A stretch of 64,000 nucleotides of DNA from an uncultured Bacillota bacterium (GTDB taxonomy: Bacteria > Bacillota > Clostridia > Oscillospirales > Oscillospiraceae). Position numbers and translations under genes: made by a program. Under the pieces are notes generated by a model. That model saw only the letters and a list, made by a program, of their open reading frames with translations. It ran no database searches and had not been told where the DNA came from. Positions 290 to 17,216 of the stretch are shown in pieces (the first letter of the stretch is position 1; each line of letters opens with the position of its first letter). The stretch is taken from the NCBI GenBank assembly GCA_947426945.1, contig CANEFX010000004.1, forward strand, positions 1-64,000. The letters run 5' to 3'.

Positions 290-296
290 ATTACGA

Positions 297-330: not shown

Positions 331-387
331 CCTTTTGTCTATTGTCCGTTTTTACTGGGGCGGTTCACAGGTCGGGGAATTTTTTCT

Positions 388-3300
388 TTAATAGGTCAGC
401 ACCCGGTGAAGCATCTGCGCCATATCCACCCGGCTCAGGGGCTGGGTGGGGTCCAGCCGGCCGCTCCTGGTGGGCAAATATCCCTGCTGCACCGCGAAGG
501 CCATGGCCCCTTGGGCGTAGCCGGCCACCCGGCCACTGTCGCTGTAGCCGCTCAGGTAGCCGGCGCTGCCGTCGTAGCCACCCATGCCCAGAGCCTGTAT
601 GGCCCGCTGGACCATGCACACTGCGTCCTGCCGGCTCAGGGTCCCGCCGGGGTTATAGCGTCCGCCGCCCACACCGCTGACGACGCCCATTGCCCGCAGG
701 GTGTCCACCGCCTCGGCATAGTAGGCGCCGGAGGCCACATCCTGGAACGGCCTGCTGTTGTAACGGGGGCTCAGCTCCATGGCCTGATAGAGCATCAGTG
801 CGAAATCCCCCCGCCGGATGGAGTTCTCCGGGCCAAACTGAGTGGAGGACATCCCCCGTGTGACGCCATTCTCCCGGCAGAAGTCCACGGCCGCCCGCTG
901 GGCGTCGCTGTAGCCGCCCATATCGCTGAAATAGTCGGAATTGCGAGTGGGAGAGACCGTAATAACCGCTTCACCCTCAAAGGTGGTGCCGTTGGAGTTG
1001 GTACCGGTATAGGGCAGAACCACCGTCCCGGTATAGCCCGCCCTGGGAACAAAGGCCAGGTCGGAGATCAGGTTGCTTCCACTGGTGCGGTAAGAGGTCC
1101 TGGTATCCGCCTCCCGCTCATGGCGGAGGGGACTGGTATACCGGTAGTACAACCGGCCCTCATCCGCCGAGGGCATAGCGTTAAACCGGATGGAGGACAG
1201 GGTACGGGTCCCCTGCCGGAAGTCCCGGTCGTTAAACTGGACCGGGGCGCTCCGGGTGTAGTACTGGGCGCTTGTGTCCGCCTCACCGTGCTCCACTGCA
1301 ATCTCCACCGTGCCCTGGAACACCTCGCCGTAGTCAGAGGTGGCAGTGAAATCGATATACACGGTTCCCGTATAATTCCGGGCGGGGACAAAGGCCACCT
1401 GATTCAGGCTGTTCCGGGAGACAGCGGCGCTGCTGGAGCTGAGGCGCTGCCCCATATTAGAGGAGGAGCGATACCCGGTGTAGAGATCACCCTGGCTGGT
1501 AGAAGGAATCTGGAAACGGACGGAGCGCACATTCTCTCTGGTATCCCACTGGGACAGGCTGTCGAAGTCGTCCCGGTTAAAGACCGCTGCCGAACCGCTG
1601 TCCGTCCGGTAATGAATGGTCCAGTCGGTCACACCGGTGGAGTCGATGGTGATTACTCCGTTAAAGGAATCGCCGTTGACGGCATAGCCTACAAAGGGGA
1701 TATCCACCGAGCCGAAGAACCCGCTGGCTGCGCGGAAGGACAGACGGCTGATCCGGTTGCTGTTGCCATTGGTGTAGTGAGTGCCTATGGCGGCCCGGCT
1801 GGTAGAGTTGTAGTAGACAGAGCCCTCGCTGTAGCTGTCGGGCAGCCGCTGGAAAACAATATAGTTCAGAGTGCGGCCCGTCAGCTCCCGGCACAGACTG
1901 GTAAAATCACTGTTGACAAAGCTCACCGACCGGCCGGGGGAGCAGGTATAGCGGATGTCGCCGCTGCCGCTGCTGCCCCGGACGGCAATCTCCACCCGTC
2001 CGGAGAAGCGGCTGCCGTCCCTGTCCCAGGCGGTAAAGGGGATACGGACCATACCCGTGAAATCCTCTGCCGGGACAAAGGTGATCCGGTCCAGCCGGGG
2101 GGTGCGGCTGTTGTAGTAGTAGCTGCTCCCCACGCTGACGTAGGAGCCGGGACTGCCGGCGCTGCGGTAGTCGTAGTATAAGACACCCTGGGAGGGCCCG
2201 GGCAGGCTGTCAAATTGGATATGACTCAGGGTATTGCCGCTGGGAAGCACCTGCCAGCGGTAGCTTTCAAAGTCCCGGTCGTCAAAGGTGACGGGGCCGC
2301 CGCTGGCGGTAGCGTAAGAGGGGCCCCCCTCTTTAATGTCACTCCGCTCCCCCACCGTAACGGTTATGCTGCCGGAATAGACGCTGCCGGAGGCTCCCCG
2401 GCCCCGGCCGGTGTAGGAAATAGTCACCGGGCCGGTGACGCCGGCGGCAGGAACAAACCAGATGTCGTCCAGCTCTTTTCGGGTGTACAGCTTGCTGGTG
2501 GATACCACACTGCCGTAATCACCCGGACCGGCGTAGTCGGTGTACAGGGTCCCCTGGCGGCTGGAGGGCTGGACAAAGGTGACGGTATCCAGTCCCACCC
2601 CGTTGAACTCCTGGCAGATGCGGTCAAACTCCGCGCTGCTGAACTTGACCGGCGTGTCATAGGGGGTTGACATGGTCAGGACGGGCACGCTGCCTCTGGA
2701 CTCCACATTGAGCAGGATGCGGCACTGGCGGTTTTCATAGGTGCCGGACACCGCGGTGTAGCTGATGGCCACCTCGCCGCCGGAAAAATTAAGCTTGGGG
2801 ACAAAGGTGATGTCGGACAGTCCCCTCTGACCGGTAGACGGATGCAGGTAATAACTGCCCTCCTGGGCCACCCCCGAGCCGGGCTCGGCCTCGGAGTGAT
2901 ATTTATAGTACAGGGTGCCCTGGGCAGTGTCCACCCGCAGACCGGTGATGTGGGACAGGCCGTCCACCTGTCCGCCGATCTGGGCGGCGAGCGCGCCGAA
3001 GTTCAGCGTGTCGTTGACGCTCATGGGGTAGGCTCTCCGGTCAATCGTGGACTTGCCGGGCGTTACGTTCACGGTGACCTTCTCCGGATAGAGTCCGCCG
3101 CCCACACTGACCTCAAGGGTGGTTCTGCCGGGAGCCCGGCCGATCACCTGATAGCCGTTGATCTCCGCCACGCTGGGGTCCGCGGACATCCAGCTCACGG
3201 CCTTTCCGCCGGCCACGCCGAACAGCTCCGTCAGGGGCAGCTCCTTGCTCTGGTCCTCTTCCAGAGAGATGGAGGTCTCGCTCAGCCGGATGCCGCTCAC

Positions 3301-3630
3301 CTCCACGGGTACCTGGGCGGAGTAGCGCACGCCCTCCACCTCGACATAGGCCGTGATCACCGTCCTGCCGGGGCTGAGGGCGTAGATCGTTCCGCGGCTG
3401 AAGCTGGCTACCGCCGGAGCAGAGTTTTCCCACTGTATCTCCGCGCCGGGCGCGTCGGTGGTGGCGGTAAGTCCGCGCTGGTCGCCCTTCTCCATGGTGA
3501 TGGTGTCGGTGGCGCTCAGCTCGACCCAGTATTTCGGCGGATCGTCCGCAAGGACCGCCGGGGCCAGGGTCAGGCTCATGGCCAGGGTCAGCAGCAGGGC
3601 CAGCCAGCGCCGCCCAAGGGTCGTTTTCAT
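388..3630 (-). CDS. Secreted SLH-domain protein with six tandem ~115-residue repeats
   Basis: 1080 residues; ATG at 3630 follows AAGGAG. Residues 1-28 are a signal peptide (basic start, hydrophobic core, AVLA then DD). Residues about 35-195 resemble two bacterial Ig-like (Big2) domains with the NSAPAVAS and MSADPSVAE signatures. Residues about 196-895 hold six diverged repeats, each with the pattern G-x-LYY-x-Y, then (I/L)-x-FVPA, then V-x-I-x-(F/Y)TA and a closing V-x-I-x-V strand, suggesting beta-sandwich modules. The last ~180 residues are three SLH domains (YFSDM..., PFQDV..., YSDSG...), which bind secondary cell-wall polysaccharide. Probably a surface adhesin or wall protein and the last gene of the minus-strand cluster; ligand unknown. 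Confidence 0.85.
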   Translation of the reverse strand: MKTTLGRRWLALLLTLAMSLTLAPAVLADDPPKYWVELSATDTITMEKGDQRGLTATTDAPGAEIQWENSAPAVASFSRGTIYALSPGRTVITAYVEVEGVRYSAQVPVEVSGIRLSETSISLEEDQSKELPLTELFGVAGGKAVSWMSADPSVAEINGYQVIGRAPGRTTLEVSVGGGLYPEKVTVNVTPGKSTIDRRAYPMSVNDTLNFGALAAQIGGQVDGLSHITGLRVDTAQGTLYYKYHSEAEPGSGVAQEGSYYLHPSTGQRGLSDITFVPKLNFSGGEVAISYTAVSGTYENRQCRILLNVESRGSVPVLTMSTPYDTPVKFSSAEFDRICQEFNGVGLDTVTFVQPSSRQGTLYTDYAGPGDYGSVVSTSKLYTRKELDDIWFVPAAGVTGPVTISYTGRGRGASGSVYSGSITVTVGERSDIKEGGPSYATASGGPVTFDDRDFESYRWQVLPSGNTLSHIQFDSLPGPSQGVLYYDYRSAGSPGSYVSVGSSYYYNSRTPRLDRITFVPAEDFTGMVRIPFTAWDRDGSRFSGRVEIAVRGSSGSGDIRYTCSPGRSVSFVNSDFTSLCRELTGRTLNYIVFQRLPDSYSEGSVYYNSTSRAAIGTHYTNGNSNRISRLSFRAASGFFGSVDIPFVGYAVNGDSFNGVITIDSTGVTDWTIHYRTDSGSAAVFNRDDFDSLSQWDTRENVRSVRFQIPSTSQGDLYTGYRSSSNMGQRLSSSSAAVSRNSLNQVAFVPARNYTGTVYIDFTATSDYGEVFQGTVEIAVEHGEADTSAQYYTRSAPVQFNDRDFRQGTRTLSSIRFNAMPSADEGRLYYRYTSPLRHEREADTRTSYRTSGSNLISDLAFVPRAGYTGTVVLPYTGTNSNGTTFEGEAVITVSPTRNSDYFSDMGGYSDAQRAAVDFCRENGVTRGMSSTQFGPENSIRRGDFALMLYQAMELSPRYNSRPFQDVASGAYYAEAVDTLRAMGVVSGVGGGRYNPGGTLSRQDAVCMVQRAIQALGMGGYDGSAGYLSGYSDSGRVAGYAQGAMAFAVQQGYLPTRSGRLDPTQPLSRVDMAQMLHRVLTY

Positions 3631-3712
3631 GGTAAACCACTCCTTTTTTCGTCGGGGTTTGGAAAGGACCCGGCGGGAGCAGGCTCAGGGCCCGCTCCCG
3701 CTGGGGGATGCG

Positions 3713-6700
3713 TCAGCGCCGCCGGGATGAAGCCTGAGTTTCGGTCTTTTCAATCGGGGCTTTAAGATCGTCAGCGGTAACCTTTGCCCAGGCCCTGTTC
3801 AGCGCTGTCGGACCGGTAAGCACACCTGAGCCTCCATCGTCCAGCTTAACCTCAATTGTGATGTCCTTCTGCGCATGGGCCTTGCCGGTTGCGTCATACA
3901 CCTCGATTCCCTTCAATACCGTAATGGTACTGCCTGTCTTGTCAATGCCGGAAACATTAAGCGTGTATTGGGAGGAGCCTGTTTTTGTTGCCTTAGCCAC
4001 GGCCTTACCGCTTGCAGTCTTACAAGCGATATCGCTGATGACTTTCCCGCTCGCATCGCAAAGCGGCTTGCTGAAGTCAAGAACAATCTTCGCTGTACCA
4101 TTGCCGCCGTCCAAATCGTTAATGACTGCATTTGTCAGCTTCGGCGGGATTACGGGCCGATCATCCTCCTTCTCTTCGATTGTCTTGCCATCAAAAAGAA
4201 CGGTTATATGCCTTAGTATGACCGTACCTCCATCGCTTGTTTCCGCCTCTTCTCCCTTAACCCTGATGATAAGCTGCTTCATCGTATCTGATGTCTCGTC
4301 TTCATCAGCATATACCTTAGTATTTGCCAGCAGTTGGATGGCAGCATCCGTTGTTCCCGTTATGCCCGCTATCTTGATCCCATACATTGTGCCGGCGGGG
4401 GAATACGTCTGGGTAACTGTGAGACCTGTGCGCGTTATCCCGCTCTGATCCGAAGTTATATCGGAAATCTGAACTCCGCCGCTGTAAATCCATGTGCTGA
4501 AATCGAGATCAATCGTCGCCTCGCTGTGAGTACTACCCAAATTAATCGTTGCATTCCTCAGCTTCGGCGGGTCTATTGTCAGGCCCCCGTGTTCCAGTAC
4601 ACTCTCAAGTTCCTCAACTTCTGCGAAGCCGATAACCTCCTCCTTGCCCGGATTGTCCGAATCGTTTCCCTCGTAGGTAACTTCCCATCTGCCGATCCAC
4701 CATTTCTCGGAGTTTCCTTCCTCATTCTTCCTCGTCTCAGGACGCACGGTAAATTTGATTCTAAGGGGACCACCCGGGCTGCTGGCGCCCTTGGCATAAA
4801 AACGGCCATTGGGCAAAATTGTATAGGTGTCGCCTCTTTCAAGTCCGCTAAAGTCAAGATCAAAGTCGGAGGGACCTCCCGACGCGCTTGTAAAGGGATG
4901 GCCGCTCTTCACATTGTACAGCAGACCGACCGTCGCATCATCTCCCGTTCCGTCCGGACCAGCGCTGCCGCCCTTTACTACGTACTGCTCATTGTTGTAC
5001 GGCTTGCTCCCGGTCCAGGAAAGCGCCCGGGTAAGCTCAAAGCTGAGGCTGATATTTCCATCGAGCACAGGGCGGTTCGTTTTTTCATCCCAGCCGGTGA
5101 AATTAATATTACCATCCGCAAATCTCAGCTTGGGCGTACTCTTGTCGGCCATCTCAACCGGCGACACAGCGCGGAAGCTGCTTACGCTGACAATATCCGT
5201 GTCCTTGCTCTGAGCGTTGCGGCCCACGACCAGGATCAGATACTCCGTCAGGTCTACGTTATCCCCAAATTTATCCTTGGCAATATCATACCAGCTGCCC
5301 TTCCATACGTACAGCTCTTCCGCCTTATTTTCCTTCGTCGAAAGGCCTCTCTGGGTTACATACGGCTGCAGATTCAGTATCTCGTCATTTTTAAAGGGCT
5401 CATATACTTTGGTTTTGACGTCGGCGCCGGCCAGAACATCGAAAACGCTGAATCCGTCATAGGCTTTGCCGAACCTTCTGTTCTTTTCCGGGGTGCTTCC
5501 ATAGAATGTATCCGAGTTAAAGCTCACCTTGAGGGCATCTTCCAGCGTGGTAACATTCGGATAGCTGGAAGGACCGCCGTTCGTCTCAACGCCTATCGTA
5601 AAGTTTTCCCCAAGCAGCCTCTGGGCAGTGGAGCGCTGGAGGATCATCCAGTCAAACTTGGTCTCCATGCCCTTTTCTTTTGAGTCCGCATCCTCAATCG
5701 TACTTCCGGTGGTGACCCGAAGGTCCTTCATCTCCTGCGTCGCCGAAATCTTGGGCTTGGGGGTGTCTCCGGTGGTGAACTCGTAGAGATAAACGGGGGA
5801 ATCCTCCTTGGTGTCCGACCGAAGCACGATGTAAATGAAGTAGTCGCTGTTCTTCGCCCACTTCACGTCCTTGTCATTGAGCTTTATCGTAGCCTCATCA
5901 TTTTTGGTCTTATAGGATTCATAGGATCTGGAGCTGGTAATGGCGTCCGCACTGGGGTTCAGCACCGAATAGTACTCCAGAGCATCGTCGGACTCCAGCT
6001 TTCCGCAGTCCTCTGCGGTCGTCTGTTTATATACCACGTCCCAGAGTATCCCCTGCCAGCCGTCGCCGTATCCAGCCGGGACCGTTATCCCGCTGTTGAC
6101 GGTTGTATCATTTCCGATTGTGTAGGTTTTATCAACCTCAGCATTATTCTCCGTAACCTTATACTTAATTTCGACATCCTTCCTCGTCTTGATTTCCGTG
6201 CCCGAGAGGGGCTTATCCTTGGGCACGATCCGGTAATAGAGGGTACCGGTATTGTTCAGCTTGAAGGTCATCTGCTCCTTATACTCGCCGTCAAAATAGG
6301 GCTCGAATGAAGGGCCCTCCACAAACCTGGGCGCCTCCTTGACGTTGAAGCCAAAGTCAAGCGTGATAAAGTTCGGAGCGCTGACCACCTCAACTGTCTC
6401 GTTGCTCTTGATGTTGTCCGGCGTGTCCGCTGTACGCAGGGCGTCATCCAGGTTCTGCTCAATGCCGGCTACCACGCCTACCTGCACCTTATACTTTTCA
6501 CCCCAGCTCTCATACTTATTGTCGGCGTCCGAGCGGTCTCCCACCCTGGTGGCGGAGACGGCGAACTCATACCGCATGCCCTGCTTCATCTCGTTCAGCT
6601 TCGGCAAAACGGCGGTATAGCCCGTCTTCTGGGCGTGCAGATGCGCCGCGGTGACGTCCCAGGTGCTGTCTCCCGACATCTTGCTCTTGATATTGCCCAT

Positions 6701-9700
6701 GTAGATCCAGCCATTGGCGTCTGCGCCGTCTGCCGGACCCGTCAGCAGGTCCTTTGTATCGGGGTTCATAATCCGGTAGTACAGGTCGTAGTCCATCTTC
6801 TCCCCGGAAAACAGAGCGATGTCATAGCAGGTTGTATTCTTCACGCTCTGGGTGGAATCAGGGACGATAAAGAAGCTGCCGTCCACGCGGGCAAGGGGTA
6901 TCTGTTTCGAATTTCCCTCCCCGTCCGTCTCTCCGCGCGTGCCGCCGCCCGCTTTACCCTGGGCATTGTTAACCCCGGCCAGCGTATTTTCCTGCCAGTC
7001 CGGCTGCTCTCTCTGCTCCTTCGCAATCTCGCCCAGGGTTATCGACGCCTCGGCCGTTGTGAACGTCCCCAGGACGTGATCTGTTTTCTTGCCCTCCAGC
7101 GCTTCGTACCACAGGTCGGGGTCGTACTCGTTCTCAAAGCCCTGGGGGTTGTTGCCCGTCATGTCCGTAACCTTCGACAGTCTGAAATAATACGTTCTGC
7201 CGCTGGCCAGCTTGATCGCCTTATTGGGGAGAAATACCACTTCAACGCAGCCTTCCTTGCCCTTTACCTGACGGACGGTCACCTGAGAGTAGTCCACCCA
7301 GACGCCATCTTCGTTGGCCTCTGTCTTGCTCTCCACCAGCTTGTGCTTGTTCAGGTCGAGTTCGTCTATGTAGTAGAGCTTGAAGTTGTTCTCCAGAGCC
7401 TCCTTCAGGTCCTTCGGCTTCATTTCCAGCAGGCTCACCGTGCTGGCGCCCACCTTGACCTCCTCGTTGAACTGCAGGATTATCTCATCGGCGATCCTGG
7501 GCGATGCAGGATTGTTCCCGGTCTCGGGATTTCGGAAGTACTGGGTGACCACGGGGCCCACGTTGTCTCTGGTCCGGATGGTAATCTTTTTCACCGCATC
7601 GGAGAAGTTGCCCGCCGTGTCCTCGGCCACGTAGTAAAAATCGTAGGCGGTGGCCGGTTTCAGGTTCTTCACATCAATGTCAACCTCAGTATCCGCCTTC
7701 GAAACCTTTACAGAGCCGTAGATGGATGCGCCCGTATGGTTTTTCACCGCGATCTTCGCGGTCTGGCTGGTCAGGCTGGCGACAAGGTTGCCGTTGGCGT
7801 CCGTCACATTCTCCTTGCTGTCCGGATCGGAAGCGGGAGGGGGATATATCTTGTCCTTGGCTACCGCCACCCAGTAGATAGTACCAGGCTCGTTCAGGCC
7901 GGCGGTCATCTTTACAGACTCATCCTCCTGAACGGCGTTTCTGGGATCGGGGTCCGGGTTGAACTTGGGCGGCGTCTTATCCACGGTCTTGAACTGCACC
8001 GGGACCACCGCGGAGCTGTTGACGCCGTCGGCGTCGCTGAGCCACAGATACAGGGTGTACTCCTTCAGCTCCTGCAGCCGGTTGCTTACGTTGACAACCC
8101 GCTCGGTATTCTTCACCACGTCCACAATACCGTAGCCCAGGTTGCCCGTGACGGATGCGGAGCGCATCTCCGCGGCCGTGGGGGCCGGCGCGCCCTTGAG
8201 CAGCACGGCGTAGTACATTTTGCAGGTCTTGGTTGGCATCACAGTGACCTGCGCCATGGTATTGGTGATAAGGGACATATAGGGGTAGCCCTGAGCAAAG
8301 GCGGGCTTGGAATTATCCGGTGTTGTAAAGGAAATTACCTTCACAGGGCTGCGCTCATCCCGGTCGTCCACCAGCACGGCGGACAGATAGTAGGAGCCGC
8401 CCACTGTCAGGCCGCTGATTTGGGTGCTGCCCACGGTGTCGCCCGCGGGCACGCCCACGGAGCCGCCGCGCACAGCCTTGGAGCCGTAGGAGGGCGGAGC
8501 GATCAGGTCCTCGGCTCCGATGGAGCCGTCGGCGATGTCGCTCACCGCCCAATAGATGGTGCCCTTCTTATTTCCGGCAAAATCCGCCCGGAAGCCGGTG
8601 GGGGCCACGTCGCTGGCCGCCGGGTAGCCGGACAGCAGCCGCGGGTCCAGGGAGGACTCTTCCGCGGCGGCGGAGTCCATCACCGTGCCGTTGACATTAC
8701 CGGTAATGCCGGGCCGGATATAGATATCGTCGGGCAGCATAGTCACGGTGGAGCCTGGGGCGTTGATGTTCAGCTTGCCCACGTCGCCCTCGCCGTTGAC
8801 GTTGGCGGCCACATCCAGATTCAACTCCTTTACTTCGGTGTTCCGGTTAATCTGGATGACTGAATTAGTGGCAGTCTCGTCCACGGTAATGCTCTGGACG
8901 GTGCCCTTGGCCACCTGGATAAAGGAGTCCGGCGTCTTGTCCAGCACCTTCTTGATGCGGCCGGCCAGGTCCAGACGGGTGCCCGATTTGCCCTCCAGGG
9001 TAATGTTCAGCAGACCCTTGTCGTCTGTGTTGTTATCCTCCAGATAGGCGTTTGTCCGCACGGTGGTCTTGGCAATCTCGGTGACGCCGTCCGCCCGGAC
9101 GGTGACATATTTCTTGCGCATGTTGTCCACCAGCAGCTCCTCGGCATTGACATTGCGCATAATCACGCTGGCCGCGCCGCCCTCGCTCTCACCGGTGCCG
9201 CTGACGACAATCCGCCCCAGAACATTCACGTTTTCCAGCTTGACGCCGCCCAGCCCCACGCCGCCGGAGACATACAGGTCCCCGCTGATGGTGGTGTTGC
9301 GCAGGGTGACGTTGGGGGCGGTGATGGTGACGTTGCCGGACACGTCGCCCAGCTCATAGGCGCCGCTCCCGTTGACGGGGGTGCCCAGGCACTGGCTCAC
9401 CAACACAGCCATCTGCCCCTTGGTAATATTGTCCTTGGGACGGAAGGTGTCGTCCGGATAGCCGGTGACAATATAGTTGTTCACGGCAGCCTTGACCATG
9501 CCCCGGGCCCAGCCGCTGATGGAGCGGCTGTCGGCAAAGGCCATATCCTCGCCTGGCATCTCCTTCAGCATCATGTTGCGGCCCAGAATGCATATCGCCT
9601 GCTCCCGGGTCAGCCGGGAATTGGGTGCAGCGGTCGTCTTGGAGGTACCCTTCATATAGCCGGCATTGTAAGCAATGGCCACGTCGTCATAGAACCAGTC

Positions 9701-9988: not shown

Positions 9989-10039
9989 AGATGGTTCTCC
10001 TTTCTAAAGTAGCGCGGGACAGCGCAGAAGCGTGCAGTC

Positions 10040-10624
10040 TCAGCTGGCGGTACGAATTTGTATACTGAACACTGCCTTTCGGATCAGGGCTTCCTCATCG
10101 TGAATCAGATCCACAAATTTGGCGGCGTACAGCGGCAGCCGGGAGTCCTCGTCCGGCAGCACGCGCAGCACCTGGGTCTTGATCAGCAGCGGGGAGTCGG
10201 TAACAGGCAGGACCATCTCCACGATCTCCCTGTCCTCCAGGAAGATCGTGGACCAGAACGCAATACCGCCGCAGCTCAGGTCTTTGGCCTTTATGGCGCG
10301 CTGGCCGGTCCAGTGCCCCGAGACGGGGTACATTACACTCTCAAAGTCGGTGAGGATGCGCAGGTTCTCCCGGGCGGCGGGGCCCAAAGCCGCGGTGGGC
10401 TGGATCACCAGCTGGTCGCCCCGCTGGCGGACGATCACGCCCACCCGGTCAGGGGTGCTCTCCTCCACGCCAATCAGCTGCAGCTCCCGGTGCGCCGCCA
10501 CCGCTTCCACCTTGTCATTGAGCACCCTTACCTGAAGCACTTCAGCGTTCAGCGGCGATTCCAGCACCGCGTTGGCAAGTGGGGTGCCCTGGCTGTCCAG
10601 GATTAAATAGAGCCGTTCTTCCAT
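10040..10624 (-). CDS. PilZ-domain c-di-GMP receptor protein (YcgR-like)
   Basis: 194 residues. The N-terminal half (about 1-75) resembles the YcgR_2/PilZN flagellar-brake-type domain. The C-terminal PilZ domain has both c-di-GMP ligand motifs: RENLR (RxxxR) near residue 86 and DLSCGG (D-x-S-x-x-G) near residue 114. The protein therefore probably binds c-di-GMP. Its ATG overlaps the stop of the upstream FlhB-like gene by one base (TGATG), which shows translational coupling. PilZ proteins of this architecture usually act on flagellar motors. Here the downstream genes are SLH surface proteins, so a different output is possible. Confidence 0.85.
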   Translation of the reverse strand: MEERLYLILDSQGTPLANAVLESPLNAEVLQVRVLNDKVEAVAAHRELQLIGVEESTPDRVGVIVRQRGDQLVIQPTAALGPAARENLRILTDFESVMYPVSGHWTGQRAIKAKDLSCGGIAFWSTIFLEDREIVEMVLPVTDSPLLIKTQVLRVLPDEDSRLPLYAAKFVDLIHDEEALIRKAVFSIQIRTAS

Positions 10625-10986
10625 CAGGACTCTCCTTTCTCTTCAGGCGGCGGAACCTCCCGGGCCGCCAGCTCCGCCTGGGCCGCCAGCGCTTCCCGTT
10701 CCCGACGGGCCTTGTCCGGGTCGTTGGGATCAAAATTCAAAAAGTAGACGTATATCTCCACAATGGCCTGATATAGCGCGTCCGGAATCTCCTGGCCCAG
10801 GGCCAGCTGGGACAGCATGGTGGCCAGAGAGTTGTCCTCATAGATGGGCACGCCGCTCTCGGCGGCCACCTCAATCATCCGCTCGGCCAGATAGCCCATT
10901 CCGGACGCCACCACTACCGGCGCGCCCTCTCCCTCATACCGCAGGGCTACGGCGCGATTCGTGGCCCGGTTATCATATCTTGACAT
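10624..10986 (-). CDS. Stand-alone FlhB cytoplasmic-domain (EscU/YscU/FlhB C-terminal) protein
   Basis: 120 residues with no transmembrane segment. The core (NRAVALRYEGEGAPVV, then GYLAERMIEVAAESGVPIYED, then LATMLSQLALGQEIPDALYQAI) matches the cytoplasmic C-terminal domain of FlhB/YscU. The membrane part and the NPTH autocleavage motif are both absent, since the sequence begins with NRA where NPTH would precede. Such small FlhB-like (FhlB) proteins are known beside fliK-like genes in motile Gram-positives. The gene overlaps the upstream FliK-like gene by 14 bases. In flagella FliK contacts FlhB-C to switch export specificity, so the pairing is probably functional. Confidence 0.8.
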   Translation of the reverse strand: MSRYDNRATNRAVALRYEGEGAPVVVASGMGYLAERMIEVAAESGVPIYEDNSLATMLSQLALGQEIPDALYQAIVEIYVYFLNFDPNDPDKARREREALAAQAELAAREVPPPEEKGES

Positions 10987-12412
10987 TTATGCTGTTCTCC
11001 CCCTCAAAGATCCGGGGAAATACCCCGGATATAGTCAGCGGCCGGTCCATGCGCTGGACCTGGACCGCGCCGGCAGACAGTCCGTTTTCGCTCAAAATAC
11101 GCTGCAGCTCCCCCTGAACCAGCTGGGTAAAGGGGGCCACCTTCTCCGGGCAGAACACCTGGACGTCCACCCGCTCGCCCTGACAGGCCATCACCATGTC
11201 AAAGAAACCCAGGCCCTGGATGTCAATCTTGAACAGAAACCGCAGGGTGTTGGGACGCTCTCCCCGGCCTCTTTTCAGGTTTTCCTCCGTGTCCGGGTCC
11301 ACCCACATCTCGGAAAAAACCATCTTCCCGTCCCACTCCAGGGGAAGCAGGACGTGGTTCAGCGGCATGTGGACGCTCTCGTTGACCAGGAAGGCGGAGA
11401 TGATGTTCCGGAAGGCCTCCTGTACTTCGTTCTTCGCCCCTCCCTGGAGGGCCTGCTGGGCGGCCTTTGCCAGCTGAGAGGCAAACTGGTCTCCTTCGGA
11501 GGCCTTGGCGAAGCTGGTGCTGTCCAAAAGCCTCAGCAGTCCTTCATCGCTCAGCCCTCCCAGCTTCTCTCGAAGTCCCGGGCTGCTGTTGAGCTGATGG
11601 AAGGCCTGGAGCACACTCTCCTCACTGCCGTTCTCATAGCGGGAGATATCCAGTGCCAGCATGGAGATCAGCGTTCGGGACAGGCCCATGTCGTTGGTTT
11701 TGCTGGTGTAGCCTGACAGGAAGGGAAGGATGGAACCCTGGAGCAGCTTCAGCGCTCCCGCCCTGTCTCCGGCGTTCAGCTTTCCCTCCAGCTCAGACAC
11801 CATGGGCAGCAGCTGGCTGCCCCAACTGGCCGGAATGGCCCGGGTCAGCTTGGTCAGAGTGCGCAGCAGGTTGCCCTGTATGTGGGGAGTAGAGGAGTAA
11901 TCCCCATACTTTTTCAAAAACTGGAGGATATTGCTGCGCACCGCCTCGGAGCTGCTGGAGGCGTACGCGCCCCGGAGCAGATCAAACAGGGCGCCGCCGA
12001 AGCGGGTGCCGTTGGCCATCTGGGAAAACAGGAATTTCCCCAACTGTCCCTCGTCCATCTTCAGCATGTTGAGCAGCGCACCCATCTCGCCGGCGAGCCC
12101 CTCCTCGATTCCGGAGGAGACCACCTTTCCCTCGTACATGGCGAAGAGGGTGCGCAGGCTCTCGCCCATCCCGGGCGTGCCCGCCAGGCGCTGCAGGAAA
12201 GCGGCAAAATTGGAATCATAGCGCAGCCCCTGGCTGGAGCCGGCAGAATCGCCGGTATCCTGCCGCTCTGTCCGGTTATCCGGACGGCTGACCCGGGAGG
12301 GGTCGGGGGCGTTCTGGATCCGGGTATCGTTGGGCGAAACAGGGATATTTCGGTTTACGTTGCTGTTATCATGGCCCGGTACCGGGTTTGTCACACCAAG
12401 CAGATCTGGCAT
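10973..12412 (-). CDS. FliK-like (flagellar hook-length-control C-terminal-like) protein
   Basis: 479 residues from ATG 12412, which has GGAG eight bases upstream; GTG 12421 is an in-frame alternative. The first ~75 residues are low-complexity and polar (Asn, Pro, Asp, Ser). The middle is helical. Residues about 355-470 carry a beta-rich segment (MPLNHVLLPLEWDGK, LFKIDIQGLGFFDM, VDVQVF, then a helix and VQVQRM) similar in plan to the FliK C-terminal domain. That fold call is inference. Immediate coupling to the FlhB-C gene supports it. No signal peptide is seen. Divergent from cheA, with promoters expected in the 12413-12573 gap. Confidence 0.55.
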   Translation of the reverse strand: MPDLLGVTNPVPGHDNSNVNRNIPVSPNDTRIQNAPDPSRVSRPDNRTERQDTGDSAGSSQGLRYDSNFAAFLQRLAGTPGMGESLRTLFAMYEGKVVSSGIEEGLAGEMGALLNMLKMDEGQLGKFLFSQMANGTRFGGALFDLLRGAYASSSSEAVRSNILQFLKKYGDYSSTPHIQGNLLRTLTKLTRAIPASWGSQLLPMVSELEGKLNAGDRAGALKLLQGSILPFLSGYTSKTNDMGLSRTLISMLALDISRYENGSEESVLQAFHQLNSSPGLREKLGGLSDEGLLRLLDSTSFAKASEGDQFASQLAKAAQQALQGGAKNEVQEAFRNIISAFLVNESVHMPLNHVLLPLEWDGKMVFSEMWVDPDTEENLKRGRGERPNTLRFLFKIDIQGLGFFDMVMACQGERVDVQVFCPEKVAPFTQLVQGELQRILSENGLSAGAVQVQRMDRPLTISGVFPRIFEGENSINVKI

Positions 12413-12470
12413 TGGCGACACTCCATTTCAGTAAAACTTTGTTTTTTTTCTGAGAATCTTAATTTTCTAA

Positions 12471-12498
12471 TTGACAGTGCCGATATAATGAGTATGAT
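12471..12498 (+). promoter_or_regulatory. Sigma-A-like promoter of the che operon
   Basis: TTGACA at 12471-12476 and TATGAT at 12493-12498 with a 16-base spacer, 75 bases upstream of the cheA ATG. Five of six bases of the -10 box match the consensus. Confidence 0.7.
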
Positions 12499-12573
12499 TA
12501 TAGATAGGCAGGTGTACTACGCCCTTCCGGGCTGGACCCTCGTCAAGCAAACTAAGATAAAGGTGGCGTTTTT

Positions 12574-14661
12574 ATGGGCGACAGTATCCTGGATATGTAC
12601 CTGTATGAGACCAACACTCTGCTGGAGCAACTGGACGGTATTCTGTTGACTGCGGAGCAGGCAGATACGTTCTCTGAGGACAGCGTCAATGAGATTTTCC
12701 GTATTATGCATACCATCAAAGGCTCCTCCGCCATGATGGAATTCAGTTCTCTGATGACGGTGGCCCACCGGATTGAGGACATGTTCTTCATCGTCCGGGA
12801 GAAAGGCATGGATGTGGTTCCTGAGCAGACCAAGCCCGAACTGTTCGATATGCTGTTCCAGGCCGTAGACTTTTTCCGGGGGGAAATTGAAAAAGTAGAA
12901 AACGGAGACCCCCTCTCTCAGTCTATCGACCACATCGTAAATAAAATTAATAGTCTGATCGATAAAATTCAAGGCAATCCCGCCGCCCCCGCAGCCAACG
13001 CTTCCGCTCCAGCTGAAAACGCCTCCGCCCCTGCTGCGGCTGAGGCTTCCGCCCCTGCCATCAGCGCCGTAAATCAGGACTATCCTTTCGGTATCCATGT
13101 CTTTTTTGACGAGGGCAGCGGCATGGAGAATCTGCGTGCCTTTATGCTGGTCAACAGCGTAAAGGATTATTGCGGCGATTTTATTACTTACCCCGACAAT
13201 GTGGAGACCGATCCCTCCACCTCCGATATCATCGCCGACCAAGGCTTCCTGCTGTGGTTCCGCACGGCGGAGGAGCGGGACAACGCCACCCACGCTATGA
13301 ACGGTGCCGGGTCCGTCCGGGAGTATCAGCCGGTGGACGCGGCCAGGCCCGCCCCCGCTCCCACCCAGGCTCCCAAGGATGAGACCCCTGCCCCCGCGGC
13401 TCAGGCTCCCAAGGCAGAGGCTCCCGCGGCCAAGCCCGCTCCCGCTCCCGCTCCGGCCGCCGGACAGCAGCATGCCAAGGAAAGCCTCATCAGCGTTAAC
13501 CTGTCCAAGCTGGACCAACTGCTGGCGGTAGTCAGCGAGATCGTCATCACTGAGTCCATGGTCACCGCCTCCCCCGACCTGAAAGGGCTGCGGCTGGACA
13601 ATTTCACCAAGTCCGCCCGGGATCTGCGCAAGCTCACCGACGACCTTCAGGACGTGTCCATGTCTCTTCGCATGGTGCCCGTGTCCGGCACCTTCCAGAA
13701 GATGAACCGCATCGTTCGTGATATGAGCAAGAAGCTGGGGAAACGCGCCAAGCTCACCCTCATTGGCGAGGACACCGAGGTAGACAAGACTATTGTGGAC
13801 GCCATCGGCGACCCCATCATGCATATCGTCCGCAACTCCATGGACCACGGCCTGGAGGAGAAGGAGTCCGACCGCGTCGCCGCCGGCAAGGACCCGGTCG
13901 GCGAGGTCATCCTTGCCGCCCGACATACCGGCAGCGAGGTCATCATTGAAATTAAGGACGACGGCCAGGGGGTCGATCTCCAGGCCGTGCTCAATAAGGC
14001 CATCCGTCAGGGCCTGGCCCAACAGGATCACGAGTACAGCCAGAAGGAGATTCTCAACTTCCTGATGATGCCCGGCTTCTCCACCAACACCGAGGTAACG
14101 GAGTACTCCGGCCGCGGCGTGGGCATGGATGTGGTCAAAAAGAACGTGGCCGACGTAGGCGGCACCGTGTCCATCACCAGCGAGTGGGGCAAGGGCATGA
14201 CCACCACCCTGAAGATCCCTCTGACCATGGCCATCATGGACGGCATGGAGGTCTCGGTGGGCGGCTCCATGTTCACCATTCCCATCAACAGCATCCAGTC
14301 CTCTCTGAAGGTGGCTGCCAAGGACGTAATCCACGATCCCGCCCGGGGCGAAATGGTCAAGATTCGGGACAATTTCTATCCCATCATCCGGGCCAAGGAG
14401 CTCTTCCAGATGGATAAGGGCTACGAAAACATTGAGGACGGCATCCTCATGTGGGTGGAATCCGGCGAGCACTCCTACTGCCTGTTTGTTGACGAACTGC
14501 TGGGTGAGCAGCAGATTGTGGTAAAGCCGCTGCCCAACTATGTGAACAGCTTCGGCGTGAAGAACTATGGCATCACCGGCTGCAGCATTCTGGGCGATGG
14601 CAGCATCAGCATTATTCTGGATGTCATCAATGTATACACCGCCGCCCACAACATCTTTTGA
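12574..14661 (+). CDS. cheA: Chemotaxis histidine kinase CheA
   Basis: 695 residues; AAAGGTGG precedes the ATG. Residues 1-110 form the Hpt (P1) domain with phosphorylated His46 in MHTIKGSS. Residues about 165-255 form a P2-like response-regulator docking domain, set off on both sides by Ala/Pro-rich linkers. A P3 dimerisation helix pair follows. The P4 ATPase has the N box (RNSMDHGLE), G1 box (DDGQGVD) and G2 box (GRGVGMDVV). The C terminus is a CheW-like P5 domain. CheA autophosphorylates in response to chemoreceptors and passes phosphate to CheY and CheB. First gene of an operon with cheW, cheR and cheB; no cheY or receptor gene lies in the window. Confidence 0.97.
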   Translation: MGDSILDMYLYETNTLLEQLDGILLTAEQADTFSEDSVNEIFRIMHTIKGSSAMMEFSSLMTVAHRIEDMFFIVREKGMDVVPEQTKPELFDMLFQAVDFFRGEIEKVENGDPLSQSIDHIVNKINSLIDKIQGNPAAPAANASAPAENASAPAAAEASAPAISAVNQDYPFGIHVFFDEGSGMENLRAFMLVNSVKDYCGDFITYPDNVETDPSTSDIIADQGFLLWFRTAEERDNATHAMNGAGSVREYQPVDAARPAPAPTQAPKDETPAPAAQAPKAEAPAAKPAPAPAPAAGQQHAKESLISVNLSKLDQLLAVVSEIVITESMVTASPDLKGLRLDNFTKSARDLRKLTDDLQDVSMSLRMVPVSGTFQKMNRIVRDMSKKLGKRAKLTLIGEDTEVDKTIVDAIGDPIMHIVRNSMDHGLEEKESDRVAAGKDPVGEVILAARHTGSEVIIEIKDDGQGVDLQAVLNKAIRQGLAQQDHEYSQKEILNFLMMPGFSTNTEVTEYSGRGVGMDVVKKNVADVGGTVSITSEWGKGMTTTLKIPLTMAIMDGMEVSVGGSMFTIPINSIQSSLKVAAKDVIHDPARGEMVKIRDNFYPIIRAKELFQMDKGYENIEDGILMWVESGEHSYCLFVDELLGEQQIVVKPLPNYVNSFGVKNYGITGCSILGDGSISIILDVINVYTAAHNIF

Positions 14662-14688
14662 CCGGACCAACAGAAGGGAGAGCTAACT

Positions 14689-15177
14689 ATGGCACAAATG
14701 TTACAGTCTGAAGAGGTATTGTTTGCGACCGAGAGCGATGTGGACGACTACAACGACCAGCTGCCCGAGATTGCAACTGAAAAATATCTGATTTTTTCCT
14801 CCGATGGCCTGATGTACGGCATCAAGGCCGAACAGGTGAAGGATATCATCACCGACTACACCATCACTTACCTCCCCCGGGTCCCCGACTATGTGCGGGG
14901 CGTCATCAATCTCCGGGGCCAGATTATCCCTGTGGTGGACATCCGCCTACGCCTGGGCAAACCGGAACAGGACAATTTCTGCGGCATTGTAGTGGATGTG
15001 GACGGCAGTATGGTAGGCATTCTGGTGGATATGGTGGAGCAGATGGTAGATGTCCCCCTGGACTCTATCCTGCCCGTTCCCACCAGTACCAGCCAGGCTA
15101 TGGTCTCCGGCATGTGCACGCTGCACGACGGCAATACCATGCTGGAGCTGGACTGTGGGTTGTTGCTCCACGACTGA
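14689..15177 (+). CDS. cheW: Chemotaxis coupling protein CheW
   Basis: 162 residues, led by AGGGAG. After about 25 polar N-terminal residues the CheW fold runs to the end: KYLIFSSDGLMYGIKAEQV, the conserved NLRGQIIPVVDIRLRLG, VDGSMVGILVDMV, and a C-terminal strand with MLELDCGLLL. It bridges CheA P5 and chemoreceptors in signalling arrays. It lies 27 bases after cheA and 36 before cheR, clearly co-transcribed. Confidence 0.95.
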   Translation: MAQMLQSEEVLFATESDVDDYNDQLPEIATEKYLIFSSDGLMYGIKAEQVKDIITDYTITYLPRVPDYVRGVINLRGQIIPVVDIRLRLGKPEQDNFCGIVVDVDGSMVGILVDMVEQMVDVPLDSILPVPTSTSQAMVSGMCTLHDGNTMLELDCGLLLHD

Positions 15178-15213
15178 CTCTGATTATACCGCCGAAAGCG
15201 AGGGAATTCTGAG

Positions 15214-16020
15214 ATGATACAGCCCATCTCTGATGAAGATTTTCGCCGTCTGACTTCTTTTATCAAGAGCCAGTACGGAATTACGCTGCAGGAAAAACGC
15301 CAGCTGGTCACCAGCCGCCTGTCCTCTCTGCTGGCAGAGCAGGGCTACACCGATTTTTCCCAATTCGTCACCCAGCTTCTGAAGGAGCAAAACCCCCAAA
15401 AGATCGAGCTGGTGCTCAACCGCCTTACCACCAATTACACCTTCTTCATGCGGGAAACGGAACACTTTGATTTTTTCACCAAGGTGGTCCTGCCCGAGTT
15501 GACACGCAAATATCAGAAAAAGAAATCCATTGCTATCTGGAGCGCCGGCTGTTCCAGCGGAGAGGAACCTTACAACCTTTCCATGTACATCAAGGATTTT
15601 TTAGGTATGCAGGCCAGCCAGTGGGACACCCGCATCCTGGCCACCGACATCTCTCAAAAGGCTCTGGCCAAGGCCAAGCAGGGCGTCTACGAGGTGCCTG
15701 ACACCGTACCCGAGTCCTCGCGCAGAAAATATTTCAAAAAGATTGAGGGCAGTCGGTACGCTGTCTCTCCCGAGATTCGCAATAATGTCATTTTCCAGAC
15801 CTTCAATCTGATGGACCCCATTAAATTCCGGACAAAGTTTGACGTGATTTTCTGCCGCAACGTGATGATTTATTTCGACCAGCCCACCAAGGACGCTTTG
15901 GTGCGCCGTTTTTACGACGCCACCAACCCCGGCGGCTATCTGATGATCAGCCATTCGGAGAACTTGAGCAAGAACGCCCCCTATGCCACGGTGGCCCCGT
16001 CCACCTTCCAGAAGAGGTAA
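15214..16020 (+). CDS. cheR: Chemoreceptor glutamate methyltransferase CheR
   Basis: 268 residues, GAGGGA before the ATG. The N-terminal helical domain (about 1-75) includes LVTSRLSSLL. The SAM-dependent methyltransferase domain carries WSAGCSSGEEPYNL (SAM-binding loop), ATDISQKAL and FCRNVMIYFD, the standard CheR signatures. It methylates receptor glutamates using SAM, opposing CheB. The presence of CheR and CheB implies methyl-accepting receptors encoded elsewhere. Confidence 0.95.
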   Translation: MIQPISDEDFRRLTSFIKSQYGITLQEKRQLVTSRLSSLLAEQGYTDFSQFVTQLLKEQNPQKIELVLNRLTTNYTFFMRETEHFDFFTKVVLPELTRKYQKKKSIAIWSAGCSSGEEPYNLSMYIKDFLGMQASQWDTRILATDISQKALAKAKQGVYEVPDTVPESSRRKYFKKIEGSRYAVSPEIRNNVIFQTFNLMDPIKFRTKFDVIFCRNVMIYFDQPTKDALVRRFYDATNPGGYLMISHSENLSKNAPYATVAPSTFQKR

Positions 16021-16048
16021 TCTGCCTGTTAAAGGAGGTAGTTTTCAT

Positions 16049-17158
16049 ATGTGGCCATCCAATAAGAAAATACGCGTCATGGTGGTAGACGATTCCGTCT
16101 TAGCCCGTACCATGATCTCCAACGGCCTGAACGCCTCCCCCCGCATTGAGGTTGTGGCTACCAGCTTCAACGCCCAGGACGCTCGGAGCAAAATTGATCA
16201 GGTCAAGCCCGACGTGATGACCCTGGACGTGGAGATGCCCGGGATGAATGGCATCGACTTTTTAAAGCAGCTGCTCCCCGTCGTTCCTCTGCCGGTCATT
16301 CTGGTGTCCTCTCTGGACCTGCGGGTCTTTGACGCTCTATCTGCCGGAGCGGTGGATTTTGTCCGCAAGCCGGAACCCGGCAAGAATGATGCTTTTATCC
16401 AAGCCCTCACCGGCAAGGTAATCGCCGCCGCCGGCGCCCACGTCCGTCCCCGCCCCGGCGCTCCAACGCTGGCCCCCAAGCCCGTCTCCGGGGCTGCCGC
16501 CGCTCCCGGCGCGGTCCGCCTGCCCATCACCGGCACCAAGCCGGCCCTTCCCGCGCCTCCGCTGCTGGGAAACCGGCCCGCTCTGGACAGCGTCATCATC
16601 GGCCTGGGCGCTTCTACCGGCGGGACAGAGGCTACACTGGAGGTCATGAAGCGGCTGCCTGCCGATATTCCCGGCATGCTTATCGTCCAGCACATGCCGC
16701 CGGGCTTTACCCAGATGTACGCCGACCGCCTCAACCGCCTGTGCCATATGGAGGTGCGTGAGGCCAAAAACGGCGACGAGATTCACAGGGGGCTGGCCCT
16801 GCTTGCCCCCGCTGATTTTCAGATGCGGGTGGTCCGCTCCGGCTCCCGCTACACCGTGTCCTGCCAGCCCGGCGAAAAGGTCAGCGGGCACCGCCCCTCG
16901 GTGGATGCCCTGTTCTTCTCCATGGCCGAGCAGGTAAAGTGCAGGATGACCGGCGTCATTATGACCGGGATGGGCCGGGACGGCGCCGACGGTCTGCTGA
17001 AAATGCGTCAGGCCGGGGCCTACACCATCGGCCAGGACAAGGAGTCCTCCGTGGTGTATGGTATGCCCATGGTGGCCTACAACATTGGGGCCGTCCAGAT
17101 TCAGGGCTCCTGCGAAGATATCGCCGGCATCCTGCTGCGTCACCTGCAAAAGCTGTAA
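16049..17158 (+). CDS. cheB: Chemotaxis response regulator protein-glutamate methylesterase CheB
   Basis: 369 residues from ATG 16049, directly behind AAAGGAGGT; a longer in-frame ATG at 15983 lies inside cheR without such a site. The receiver domain (about 8-125) has the acidic pair VDD and phospho-acceptor Asp60 in TLDVEMPGMNG. An Ala/Pro-rich linker leads to the methylesterase domain with catalytic Ser in GASTGG, His in QHMPPGFT and Asp in GMGRDGADG. It demethylates or deamidates receptors after phosphorylation by CheA. Last gene of the che operon. Confidence 0.96.
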   Translation: MWPSNKKIRVMVVDDSVLARTMISNGLNASPRIEVVATSFNAQDARSKIDQVKPDVMTLDVEMPGMNGIDFLKQLLPVVPLPVILVSSLDLRVFDALSAGAVDFVRKPEPGKNDAFIQALTGKVIAAAGAHVRPRPGAPTLAPKPVSGAAAAPGAVRLPITGTKPALPAPPLLGNRPALDSVIIGLGASTGGTEATLEVMKRLPADIPGMLIVQHMPPGFTQMYADRLNRLCHMEVREAKNGDEIHRGLALLAPADFQMRVVRSGSRYTVSCQPGEKVSGHRPSVDALFFSMAEQVKCRMTGVIMTGMGRDGADGLLKMRQAGAYTIGQDKESSVVYGMPMVAYNIGAVQIQGSCEDIAGILLRHLQKL

Positions 17159-17175
17159 TACCACTCCCCCGTTTA

Positions 17176-17216
17176 GATAATTATTTCCCCGTCTTTTGGA
17201 CGGGGAAATAATTATC
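17176..17216. repeat. 18-bp perfect inverted repeat after cheB
   Basis: 17176-17193 and 17199-17216 are exact reverse complements around a 5-base TTTTG loop (core ATTTCCCCGTC / GACGGGGAAAT). It is placed as a che-operon terminator, 18 bases past the stop, but has no T-run after the stem on either strand. Confidence 0.8.

Follow-up and report, generated by a model that had tools for sequence, protein, structure and literature searches.

Introduction

FliK and FlhB form a known export switch of flagella, and YcgR and MotI are flagellar brakes which respond to c-di-GMP through a PilZ domain. To our knowledge, little work has addressed how a Gram-positive cell surface accommodates both flagella and an S-layer. 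A stand-alone FlhB C-terminal domain, HP1575, is described in Helicobacter pylori as a "spare part" for FlhB_CC (Wand et al. 2006, cited in PMC3040844), and PMC9321776 names an flhX-fliK gene pair in Nitratiruptor. The large secreted SLH protein SlhA of Paenibacillus alvei is required for both swarming and biofilm formation; according to PMC3776848, its loss abolishes swarming while flagella remain. SlhA combines C-terminal SLH domains with a CBM6 domain, and its gene is flanked by the S-layer gene on one side and the cell-wall polymer locus on the other.

The locus analyzed here lies in a 64,000-nucleotide stretch of Oscillospiraceae DNA (the window), where a cheA-cheW-cheR-cheB operon is divergent from genes for a FliK-like protein, a stand-alone FlhB C-terminal domain (FlhX), a PilZ-domain protein and two large SLH proteins. 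Literature searches found no description of a cheA/FliK-like/FlhX/PilZ/SLH locus, which does not prove that none exists.

Organization of the locus

All of the open reading frames that a first-pass annotation of the window had claimed were located (Table 1), and Pfam confirmed the identities of CheA, CheW, CheR, CheB, the FlhB C-terminus, PilZ and SLH. Within the minus-strand run from the FliK-like gene to SLH1, neighbouring genes overlap by 14 and 1 bases or are separated by gaps of 51 and 82 bases. Translation of the FliK-like protein probably begins at the ATG at 12412, which relatives favour over the GTG, and the start codons assigned in one set of the sequences are guesses. No flagellar structural gene was found among 20 further open reading frames scanned, which are a subset of those in the window.

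Table 1. Coordinates of the features of the locus in the window.
Feature	Position	Strand	Description and basis
SLH1	388-3630	minus	1080-aa surface protein; ORF call, Pfam SLH
SLH2	3713-9988	minus	2091-aa surface protein; ORF call, Pfam SLH
PilZ-domain protein	10040-10624	minus	194 aa; Pfam PilZ, E 9e-6
FlhX (stand-alone FlhB-C)	10624-10986	minus	120 aa; Pfam FlhB C-terminus, E 9e-19
FliK-like protein	10973-12421	minus	482 aa; GTG start at 12421
Divergent intergenic region between the FliK-like gene and cheA	12422-12573		
Sigma-28-type promoter box CTTAATTTT-N12-GCCGATA, 5' of cheA	12458-12485	plus	pattern match
cheA	12574-14661	plus	Pfam CheA
cheW	14689-15177	plus	Pfam CheW
cheR	15214-16020	plus	Pfam CheR
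cheB	15983-17158	plus	Pfam CheB
Terminator-like hairpin 3' of cheB	17280-17314	plus	terminator scan

Flagellar genes of the source genome

The source assembly, which is 91.7% complete, carries on another contig a flagellar operon with its own FliK, FlhB, FlhA, CheY, FliM, MotAB and CheV; CheC, CheD and FliY are also encoded in this main operon, and fliD and fliS were found in the genome. The operon looks complete, and flagellin and flgK/flgL are not among the genes located. The CheA of the window is the only one found in the assembly, which is that of a flagellate and in which CheY and receptors are present. Because the flagellar operon lies elsewhere in the genome and the only CheA found is here, cheA-cheW-cheR-cheB is read as the flagellar chemotaxis operon, and its CheA would signal to the CheY, FliM and FliY of the main operon.

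Conservation of gene order

Almost every one of 80 loci shows the order cheB-cheR-cheW-cheA / FliK-like, FlhX, PilZ, SLH2, SLH1, which bears out the earlier proposal that the minus-strand genes form a unit divergent from cheA. These loci comprise 79 distinct FliK-like genes (L122 and L123 being the same) and are mutually related, so that the counts which follow are not independent: CheA is divergent in 72 of the 74 testable loci, SLH2 comes next in order in 73 of 76, and an SLH1 match follows SLH2 in most loci with sufficient sequence. FliK-like proteins in the order-keeping loci are 50-93% identical. Culturable relatives that carry the locus include Flintibacter muris DSM 110149 and Oscillibacter valericigenes An907 (loci L078 and L143). 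The arrangement is thus a conserved unit of Oscillospiraceae-type genomes rather than a chance neighbourhood, and in this family of bacteria of animal guts the two SLH genes, with very few exceptions, come directly after flagellar accessory genes in a run that is divergent from the chemotaxis genes. The first-pass annotation had set against its own proposal the case of a complete flagellar regulon to which these genes were adjacent by chance; the regulon is present, but the adjacency is no product of chance.

Relatives also place the locus among flagellar genes. The genes flgM, flgN, flgK and an flgL-like gene lie 3' of cheB in 28 of the 80 loci, and the FliK-like/FlhX/PilZ trio lies between flagellin and fliD-fliS in L099 and between cheA and basal-body genes in L103, where FlgL and FlgB (L103) and FlgB and FliB (L099) were named by eye with absent or sub-threshold Pfam matches, and FlgM of L103 scores just below the Pfam cut-off. 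Both of these loci have the trio with SLH2 missing at the locus. At L104 no che gene was found, yet an SLH2 relative is still present roughly 1.5 kb away, on the other side of the trio. In two distant relatives, L065 and L067, the stretch examined contains the FliK-like/FlhX pair, and neither PilZ nor SLH2 has a match there; in L067 an EAL-HDOD gene comes after flhX, another c-di-GMP-type gene in the position of PilZ.

The trio can accordingly be classed, from its gene content and neighbours, as a putative flagellar accessory module, and the genes divergent from cheA as a candidate flagellar accessory operon. A reading as a non-flagellar secretion system was rejected because the genome has its own flagellar operon and relatives have flagellar neighbours. 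The first-pass annotation had suggested that sensory input and c-di-GMP may govern whether SLH proteins are secreted or displayed, "rather than, or together with, flagella"; the same evidence, together with the tracking of FlhA by SLH2 described below, gives no support to "rather than".

The FliK-like protein and FlhX

The FliK-like protein is predicted to consist of a conserved N-terminal segment, a helical middle and a strand-rich C-terminal domain (AlphaFold model, mean pLDDT 54.7). A direct match to FliK failed by three routes: Pfam (Flg_hook, PF02120), a PDB profile search, and hhalign against the FliK of the genome's own flagellar operon, which gave nothing significant. Indirect support for the label comes from six distant relatives, in which the open reading frame directly upstream of flhX exceeds the FliK_C (PF02120) cut-off. 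By hhalign the FliK-like family reaches 98.9% with intermediates, and the intermediates reach 77.5% with three PF02120-positive open reading frames; when the intermediates are omitted, the value is 34.9%, and against the flagellar-operon FliK set it is less than 2%, the FliK profile comparison using the 7 recognisable FliK from 30 FliK loci. The two families are thus weakly joined, through intermediates.

FlhX is homologous to the C-terminus of FlhB alone and lacks the membrane part; its best NCBIfam match is TIGR00789 (FlhB-like), at 79.5 bits against a cut-off of 117.35. The NPTH autocleavage site is present in none of 21 whole FlhX proteins, and PTH in none of 80 aligned segments. FlhX coexists in the same genome with a full cleavable FlhB, which retains the site as RNPTH (contig C7). 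By analogy with the H. pylori homologue, FlhX and the FliK-like protein may be a second, non-cleavable pair of switch proteins that would operate on the export gate in trans.

The PilZ protein and c-di-GMP

The c-di-GMP motif of the PilZ protein is intact: RxxxR (R85, R89) and DxSCGG (D115-G120) are both present, the motif columns are invariant in 15 of 15 sequences, and the RxxxR/DxSxxG motif occurs in 77 of 78 aligned relatives. A Pfam search gave no family for the N-terminal half of the protein at E <= 0.001. The protein is a putative c-di-GMP receptor which, judging by its motif and place, might bind c-di-GMP and tune export or the motor; the genome has three GGDEF matches. Control by a c-di-GMP riboswitch was dropped from consideration, as there was no Rfam match in positions 1-18000 of the window at E <= 1 or, at the gathering score, in seven further stretches from elsewhere in the genome.

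Promoter and terminator signals

The sigma-28-type box in Table 1 is the only zero-mismatch match to its pattern in the genome. With up to two mismatches the sigma-28-type pattern gives 12 matches, compared with 9 for a reversed control, and a strict E. coli-like sigma-28 pattern is at background level (4 matches, 6 in the control). A box directed toward cheA is found in all 75 intergenic regions that remain after 5 of the 80 loci without a CheA match are left out, where mononucleotide shuffles lead one to expect 0.1; the pattern was fitted after inspection of these regions, so this count is a description and not a blind test. No box is directed toward the FliK-like gene in any of the 75, and a shared bidirectional sigma-28 promoter was rejected on this ground. 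Common control of the two operons is unsupported, because the box faces cheA only.

Terminator-like sites number 25 in 18 kb, compared with 14.5 expected by shuffling. SLH1 may be transcribed apart from SLH2, since a terminator-like hairpin follows SLH2 in 17 of 67 loci; the length of the scanned stretch varied by site, so that the counts for the three sites scanned compare only loosely.

The SLH proteins and their route of export

SLH1 has a signal sequence, Big_2 and cadherin/CshA-like repeats (the CshA and tandem-95 matches lying below their cut-offs) and a C-terminal SLH domain. SLH2 has N-terminal SLH domains within a base which is conserved over approximately residues 1-700, and more weakly to about 950, followed by a hypervariable C-terminal part that includes the distal 1100 or so residues. 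Compared with its two nearest relatives, the base is about 90% identical and the tail 36-42%. The base is about as conserved as the FliK-like and PilZ proteins, in a comparison from which CheA of both relatives, PilZ of L072 and the FliK-like protein of L069 were left out as wrongly paired.

Both proteins have Sec-type signal sequences, as judged by eye and by hydrophobicity rather than by SignalP, and a hydrophobic N-terminal segment is present in all 67 SLH2 relatives. They therefore have the SLH domains and signal sequence of SLH-anchored surface proteins, and, on the same eye and hydrophobicity call, do not have the freedom from a Sec signal peptide that is demanded of a substrate of the flagellar type III system. 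Flagellar export substrates are not known to use Sec-type signal sequences, and export of SLH1 and SLH2 through the flagellar apparatus is unlikely because both bear them.

This evidence weighs on the idea, put forward in the first-pass annotation, that the FliK-like protein and FlhX retool flagellar export, with c-di-GMP and sensory input gating whether the SLH proteins are secreted or displayed. The genes share a putative operon, the FliK-FlhB switch is a precedent and the PilZ motif is intact, but the Sec-type signals make secretion through such a switch unlikely, and since the FliK-like/FlhX pair of L065 and L067 is accompanied by neither a PilZ nor an SLH2 match in the stretch examined, the pair would serve without either; we consider the idea highly improbable. 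SLH2 and SLH1 would instead exit by Sec and, held to the wall through their SLH domains, make up a coat or adhesin on the cell surface, the conserved base of SLH2 lying on the wall and its variable tip pointing outward.

Distribution of SLH2 and flagella across the family

Of 400 genomes of the family searched genome-wide, 50 have an SLH2 orthologue and 87 have FlhA, with both together in 46 (Fisher's p 3e-31, phylogeny being ignored). The four genomes with SLH2 and without FlhA (G056, G311, G343 and G371) are each 78-84% complete, and FlhA is missing from none of the 31 SLH2 genomes with completeness of at least 90% and contamination of at most 5%. Seven genera were chosen because they hold both flagellate and non-flagellate species; in these, SLH2 is present in 15 of 15 flagellates and in 0 of 12 non-flagellates carrying a listed genus label, and within the genus of the source genome the figures are 5 of 5 and 0 of 5. 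Genera g42, g44 and g106 fit the pattern uncleanly. SLH2 is absent from 41 of the 87 flagellate genomes, most of them in genera where no SLH2 was seen (G222, 71% complete, and G044 belong to SLH2-bearing genera), so flagella have no general need of it.

Loss linked to that of the whole locus could lie behind part of this co-occurrence, and SLH2 and SLH1 might then be ordinary S-layer or adhesin genes that disappear with flagella by deletion of the locus. The abundance of SLH-type matches (96 of 120 family genomes), the adhesin-like variation of the SLH2 tail and the trio without SLH2 at the locus in L099 and L103 are all compatible with this. We nevertheless regard it as rather unlikely, given that 49 of the 50 orthologues adjoin this PilZ gene over many genera (the window, 14 of 14 and 34 of 35), that L104 retains an SLH2 relative near the trio with no che gene found, and that the base is conserved like its neighbours.

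A more specific role would make SLH2 a port or collar carrying the flagellum through the S-layer and wall, the Gram-positive counterpart of outer-membrane rings. Strict linkage to one flagellar lineage and the roughly 90% identity of the wall-anchored base among nearest relatives speak for such a part, but 41 flagellates of the family do without it and the hypervariable distal region better suits an exposed adhesin, and we judge this quite improbable. Also improbable, and more speculative in scope, is the suggestion that one Gram-positive flagellar lineage has SLH2 as a dedicated component, its base building or lining a site in the S-layer or wall at or near the flagella, its variable tip outward like that of flagellin, and FlhX, the FliK-like protein and PilZ timing its action by c-di-GMP.

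Discussion

The reading we favour, with some reserve, is that the locus serves flagella and chemotaxis and that flagellated cells would carry SLH2 and SLH1 as a surface coat or adhesin, the genes of which stand together with those for a putative c-di-GMP receptor and a second pair of export-switch proteins. The presence, absence and position of SLH2 suggest that swimming cells bear a dedicated surface coat, and the linkage of the SLH proteins to a c-di-GMP receptor may couple swimming with surface attachment. Gene position and the pattern of presence and absence both link SLH2, a giant wall-anchored protein, to a single flagellar lineage, and its gene adjoins those for the putative receptor and switch pair. 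SLH2 is a gene with which one can ask if the motility machinery includes an S-layer-type protein, and for FlhX, which is poorly understood, the locus provides a partner system.

As with HP1575 and the flhX-fliK pairs, the gene for a short FlhB C-terminal domain adjoins a FliK-like one here, and the genome also encodes a full FlhB; unlike them, the locus continues into PilZ and SLH genes, faces cheA, and has a FliK-like partner which is missed by the FliK model of Pfam. The PilZ protein shares with YcgR and MotI an RxxxR and DxSxxG PilZ domain and a flagellar gene neighbourhood, and differs from them in its unmatched N-terminal half. The single CheA with CheW, CheR and CheB resembles a flagellar chemosensory system with CheV, CheC and CheD, except that these four genes lie apart from the main flagellar operon. 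SLH2, finally, resembles P. alvei SlhA in being large, secreted and equipped with SLH domains, the comparison extending to the SLH domains, but those of SLH2 are N-terminal and its gene stands behind flagellar genes.

Gene content of the locus and of its source genome

Every gene that the first-pass annotation had listed was found in the window, which constitutes bases 1-64000 of contig C4 in a 2.4-Mb assembly of 52 contigs that is 91.7% complete. Pfam matched the plus-strand genes to CheA, CheW, CheR and CheB, and minus-strand genes to the FlhB C-terminus, PilZ and SLH; on the minus strand five genes follow one another in the order FliK-like, FlhX (the stand-alone FlhB cytoplasmic C-terminal domain), PilZ, SLH2 and SLH1, with overlaps of 14 and 1 bases and gaps of 51 and 82 bases between them. 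The conserved start of the relatives, MPDLLGVTNPVPG, suggests that the FliK-like gene begins at 12412 rather than 12421. Elsewhere in the window (see table), spoIIIA sporulation genes follow cheB, which makes it probable that the organism forms spores; a mobile element is possible near a phage-type integrase gene; and four kinds of gene running in one direction may form an uptake operon with the DUF3798 protein.

Features located by coordinates
Feature	Position	Strand
Region upstream of FliK-like start	window 12422-12500	
spoIIIA genes (SpoIIIAA, AE, AF and AH matches)	window 17752-22612	-
M20 peptidase, BPD_transp_2 permease, ABC ATPase and DUF3798 genes	window 25765-33009	-
Phage-type integrase	window 51276-52406	+
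EAL-HDOD gene of distant relative L067	locus 7353-8582	
Locus L199 (SLH2 relative away from PilZ)	G132:C1:366000-382000	

The source genome is that of a flagellate. The search for flagellar genes beyond the window that had been proposed at first pass located a flagellar operon on contig C7, with matches to structural and export proteins (FlgB-type rod protein, FliF, FliG, FliI, FliK (PF02120), FlgD, FlgE-type protein, FliP, FlhB, FlhA and two FlgF/G-type proteins), to motor and signalling proteins (MotA, MotB, FliM, a FliY-type protein, a CheY-like receiver and CheV), to a sigma factor, and to CheC and CheD; relatives of FliD and FliS lie on contig C35. The genome holds five receptors, three GGDEF matches and three CheW-domain places, namely the window CheA, the window CheW and CheV. 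No second CheA was found in the assembly, so the che genes of the window are the operon for flagellar chemotaxis, which stands apart from the main flagellar operon.

Conservation of gene order

Of 120 family genomes searched for a stand-alone FlhB-C homologue, 30 gave some FlhB match; in 15 of these, the source genome included, the match was close (at least 60% identity). Matches to SLH1, SLH2, PilZ, FlhX and the FliK-like protein stand in the window's order in all 14 other close genomes, and CheA faces the minus-strand genes in each of the 12 whose contig extends that far. The FliK-like family, run against named genomes, produced 148 relatives, of which 80 were kept; since their titles mention Oscillospiraceae, Lawsonibacter, Flintibacter, Pseudoflavonifractor, Oscillibacter, Flavonifractor, Intestinimonas, Pygmaiobacter, one Peptococcaceae MAG and many unnamed Firmicutes or Clostridia, the family is taken as Oscillospiraceae.

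Among loci with enough contig, a divergent CheA is present in 72 of 74, and SLH2 comes next in 73 of 76. The exceptions are L099, in which the trio of FliK-like, FlhX and PilZ genes lies between flagellin and fliD-fliS, without che and without SLH2; L103 (Pygmaiobacter massiliensis), in which the run csrA-fliW-flgL-like-flgK-flgN-flgM-cheB-R-W-A adjoins the trio, a hemerythrin gene and then basal-body genes and fliF, again without SLH2; and L104, which lacks che and has an SLH2 relative upstream of the trio on the same strand. The genes flgM, flgN and flgK and a flgL-like gene follow cheB in 28 of the 80 loci, none of them among the Lawsonibacter-like loci L069-L098. The alternative raised at first pass, that these genes lie side by side merely by chance, does not account for the conserved order and these flagellar neighbours. 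Two named assemblies each hold two copies of the locus (L070/L080 and L122/L123, the latter with identical FliK-like genes), representing either mixed bins or duplication.

A sigma-28-type box, CTTAATTTT-N12-GCCGATA, stands in front of cheA and is matched without mismatch nowhere else in the genome; with two mismatches allowed the pattern gives 12 matches and its reversed control 9, hardly a difference. With a pattern fitted after the regions had been viewed, all of 75 intergenic regions have a sigma-28-type box pointing toward cheA, and none has one toward the FliK-like gene (the 5 of 80 loci without a CheA match being left out), so another promoter serves the FliK-like operon. In 60 of 80 loci (L069-L148), a count made without a shuffled control, a short conserved AA(G/C)(A/T)TTT element, perhaps a promoter or another signal, lies ahead of the start of the FliK-like gene. 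Terminator-like hairpins occur between PilZ and SLH2 in 5 of 61 loci, after cheB in 19 of 56 and after SLH2 in 17 of 67, a distribution that fits read-through into SLH2 better than read-through into SLH1.

The FliK-like, FlhX and PilZ proteins

FlhX aligns to the end of FlhB, including FlhB chains from the PDB. The NPTH cleavage motif occurs in 0 of 21 whole FlhX proteins, and PTH in 0 of 80 aligned segments; the full-length FlhB of the source genome retains NPTH. Pfam does not recognize the FliK-like protein as FliK. Seven distant relatives have a second FliK_C-positive ORF, which is immediately upstream of flhX in six; in the seventh, G032, the FlhB-C search gave no stand-alone flhX match. 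In profile comparisons the FliK-like protein reaches intermediates at 98.9% and then three of these FliK_C-positive ORFs at 77.5%; without the intermediates the latter figure is 34.9%, and for the FliK set of the fla operons it is less than 2%. An AlphaFold model of low overall quality (mean pLDDT 54.7) shows a strand-rich C-terminal domain at 355-457, with pLDDT of about 80 at 411-460 and below 65 before 400. The name FliK-like is used here, and membership of the FliK family is not claimed.

In PilZ, R85, R89, D115, S117, G119 and G120 are invariant in 15 of 15 aligned sequences. Directly 3' of flhX, the place of PilZ in the window, distant relative L067 has an EAL-HDOD gene, so that the FliK-like/FlhX pair may have gained a c-di-GMP-type neighbour on more than one occasion; in another, L065, a VanY carboxypeptidase gene follows flhX.

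Distribution and layout of the SLH proteins

A genome-wide search with an alignment of the SLH2 core, blind to the locus, gave matches in 50 of 400 family genomes, none of them below 700 bits. FlhA, the marker for flagellate genomes, was above cut-off in 87; 46 genomes have both, 41 flagellates lack SLH2, and the four with SLH2 and without FlhA are 78-84% complete. Across seven genera with flagellate and non-flagellate species (g1, g23, g64, g66, g69, g74 and g82), SLH2 is present in 15 of 15 flagellates versus 0 of 12 non-flagellates with a genus label given, and in the window's own genus in 5 of 5 versus 0 of 5. The pattern is less clear-cut in genera g42, g44 and g106, where G311, G343 and G371 carry SLH2 but not FlhA, and G044 and G222 carry FlhA but not SLH2, G044 being the only one of these genomes more than 90% complete. 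In G343 PilZ is retained next to SLH2 and the other locus genes are absent nearby; in G311 a contig end cuts the locus.

SLH2 adjoins PilZ in 49 of the 50 genomes (the window, 14 of 14 and 34 of 35), the sole exception, in flagellate G132, being a divergent SLH2 relative of 1479 aa at another site, with no trio or cheA match within 16 kb.

In 67 of 67 SLH2 proteins a hydrophobic segment lies ahead of the SLH domain. Residues 1-700 are about 90% identical to the two nearest relatives, like the FliK-like protein (0.88-0.95, L072) and PilZ (0.92-0.95, L069), and the last 1130 residues are 36-42% identical; the switch near residue 700 is sharp, from about 90% to about 10-65% between nearest relatives. 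By these alignments SLH2 has a two-part layout that reads as a conserved base and a hypervariable tip. SLH1 is intermediate, at 0.52-0.88 in 100-residue blocks, the end region with incomplete relatives' copies being left out.

Proposed working and comparison with known systems

The gene content, order, linkage, motifs and two-part SLH2 layout are observed, and the most likely mechanism joins them as follows. Receptors would signal through CheA and CheY to the motor; FlhX and the FliK-like protein would work on the export gate in trans; PilZ would read c-di-GMP and act on export or the motor; and SLH2 and SLH1, exported by Sec, would provide flagellated cells with a coat or adhesin.

SLH proteins as such and PilZ brakes are already known. 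FlhX-FliK pairs are also known, according to a passage of PMC9321776, and Wand et al. 2006, as cited in PMC3040844, in their title call the homologous short protein of H. pylori a 'spare part' for FlhB_CC. In P. alvei, an excerpt of PMC3776848 reports, an SLH protein is required for swarming, with flagella unaffected. Oscillibacter valericigenes Sjm18-20 is described in part of PMC3558957 as having oscillatory motility and peritrichous flagella, and the locus is present in a record of that name, strain An907 (L143). The fixed union of an FlhX-FliK pair, PilZ and a flagellum-tracking SLH protein, no description of which was met in the literature search, is to our knowledge new.
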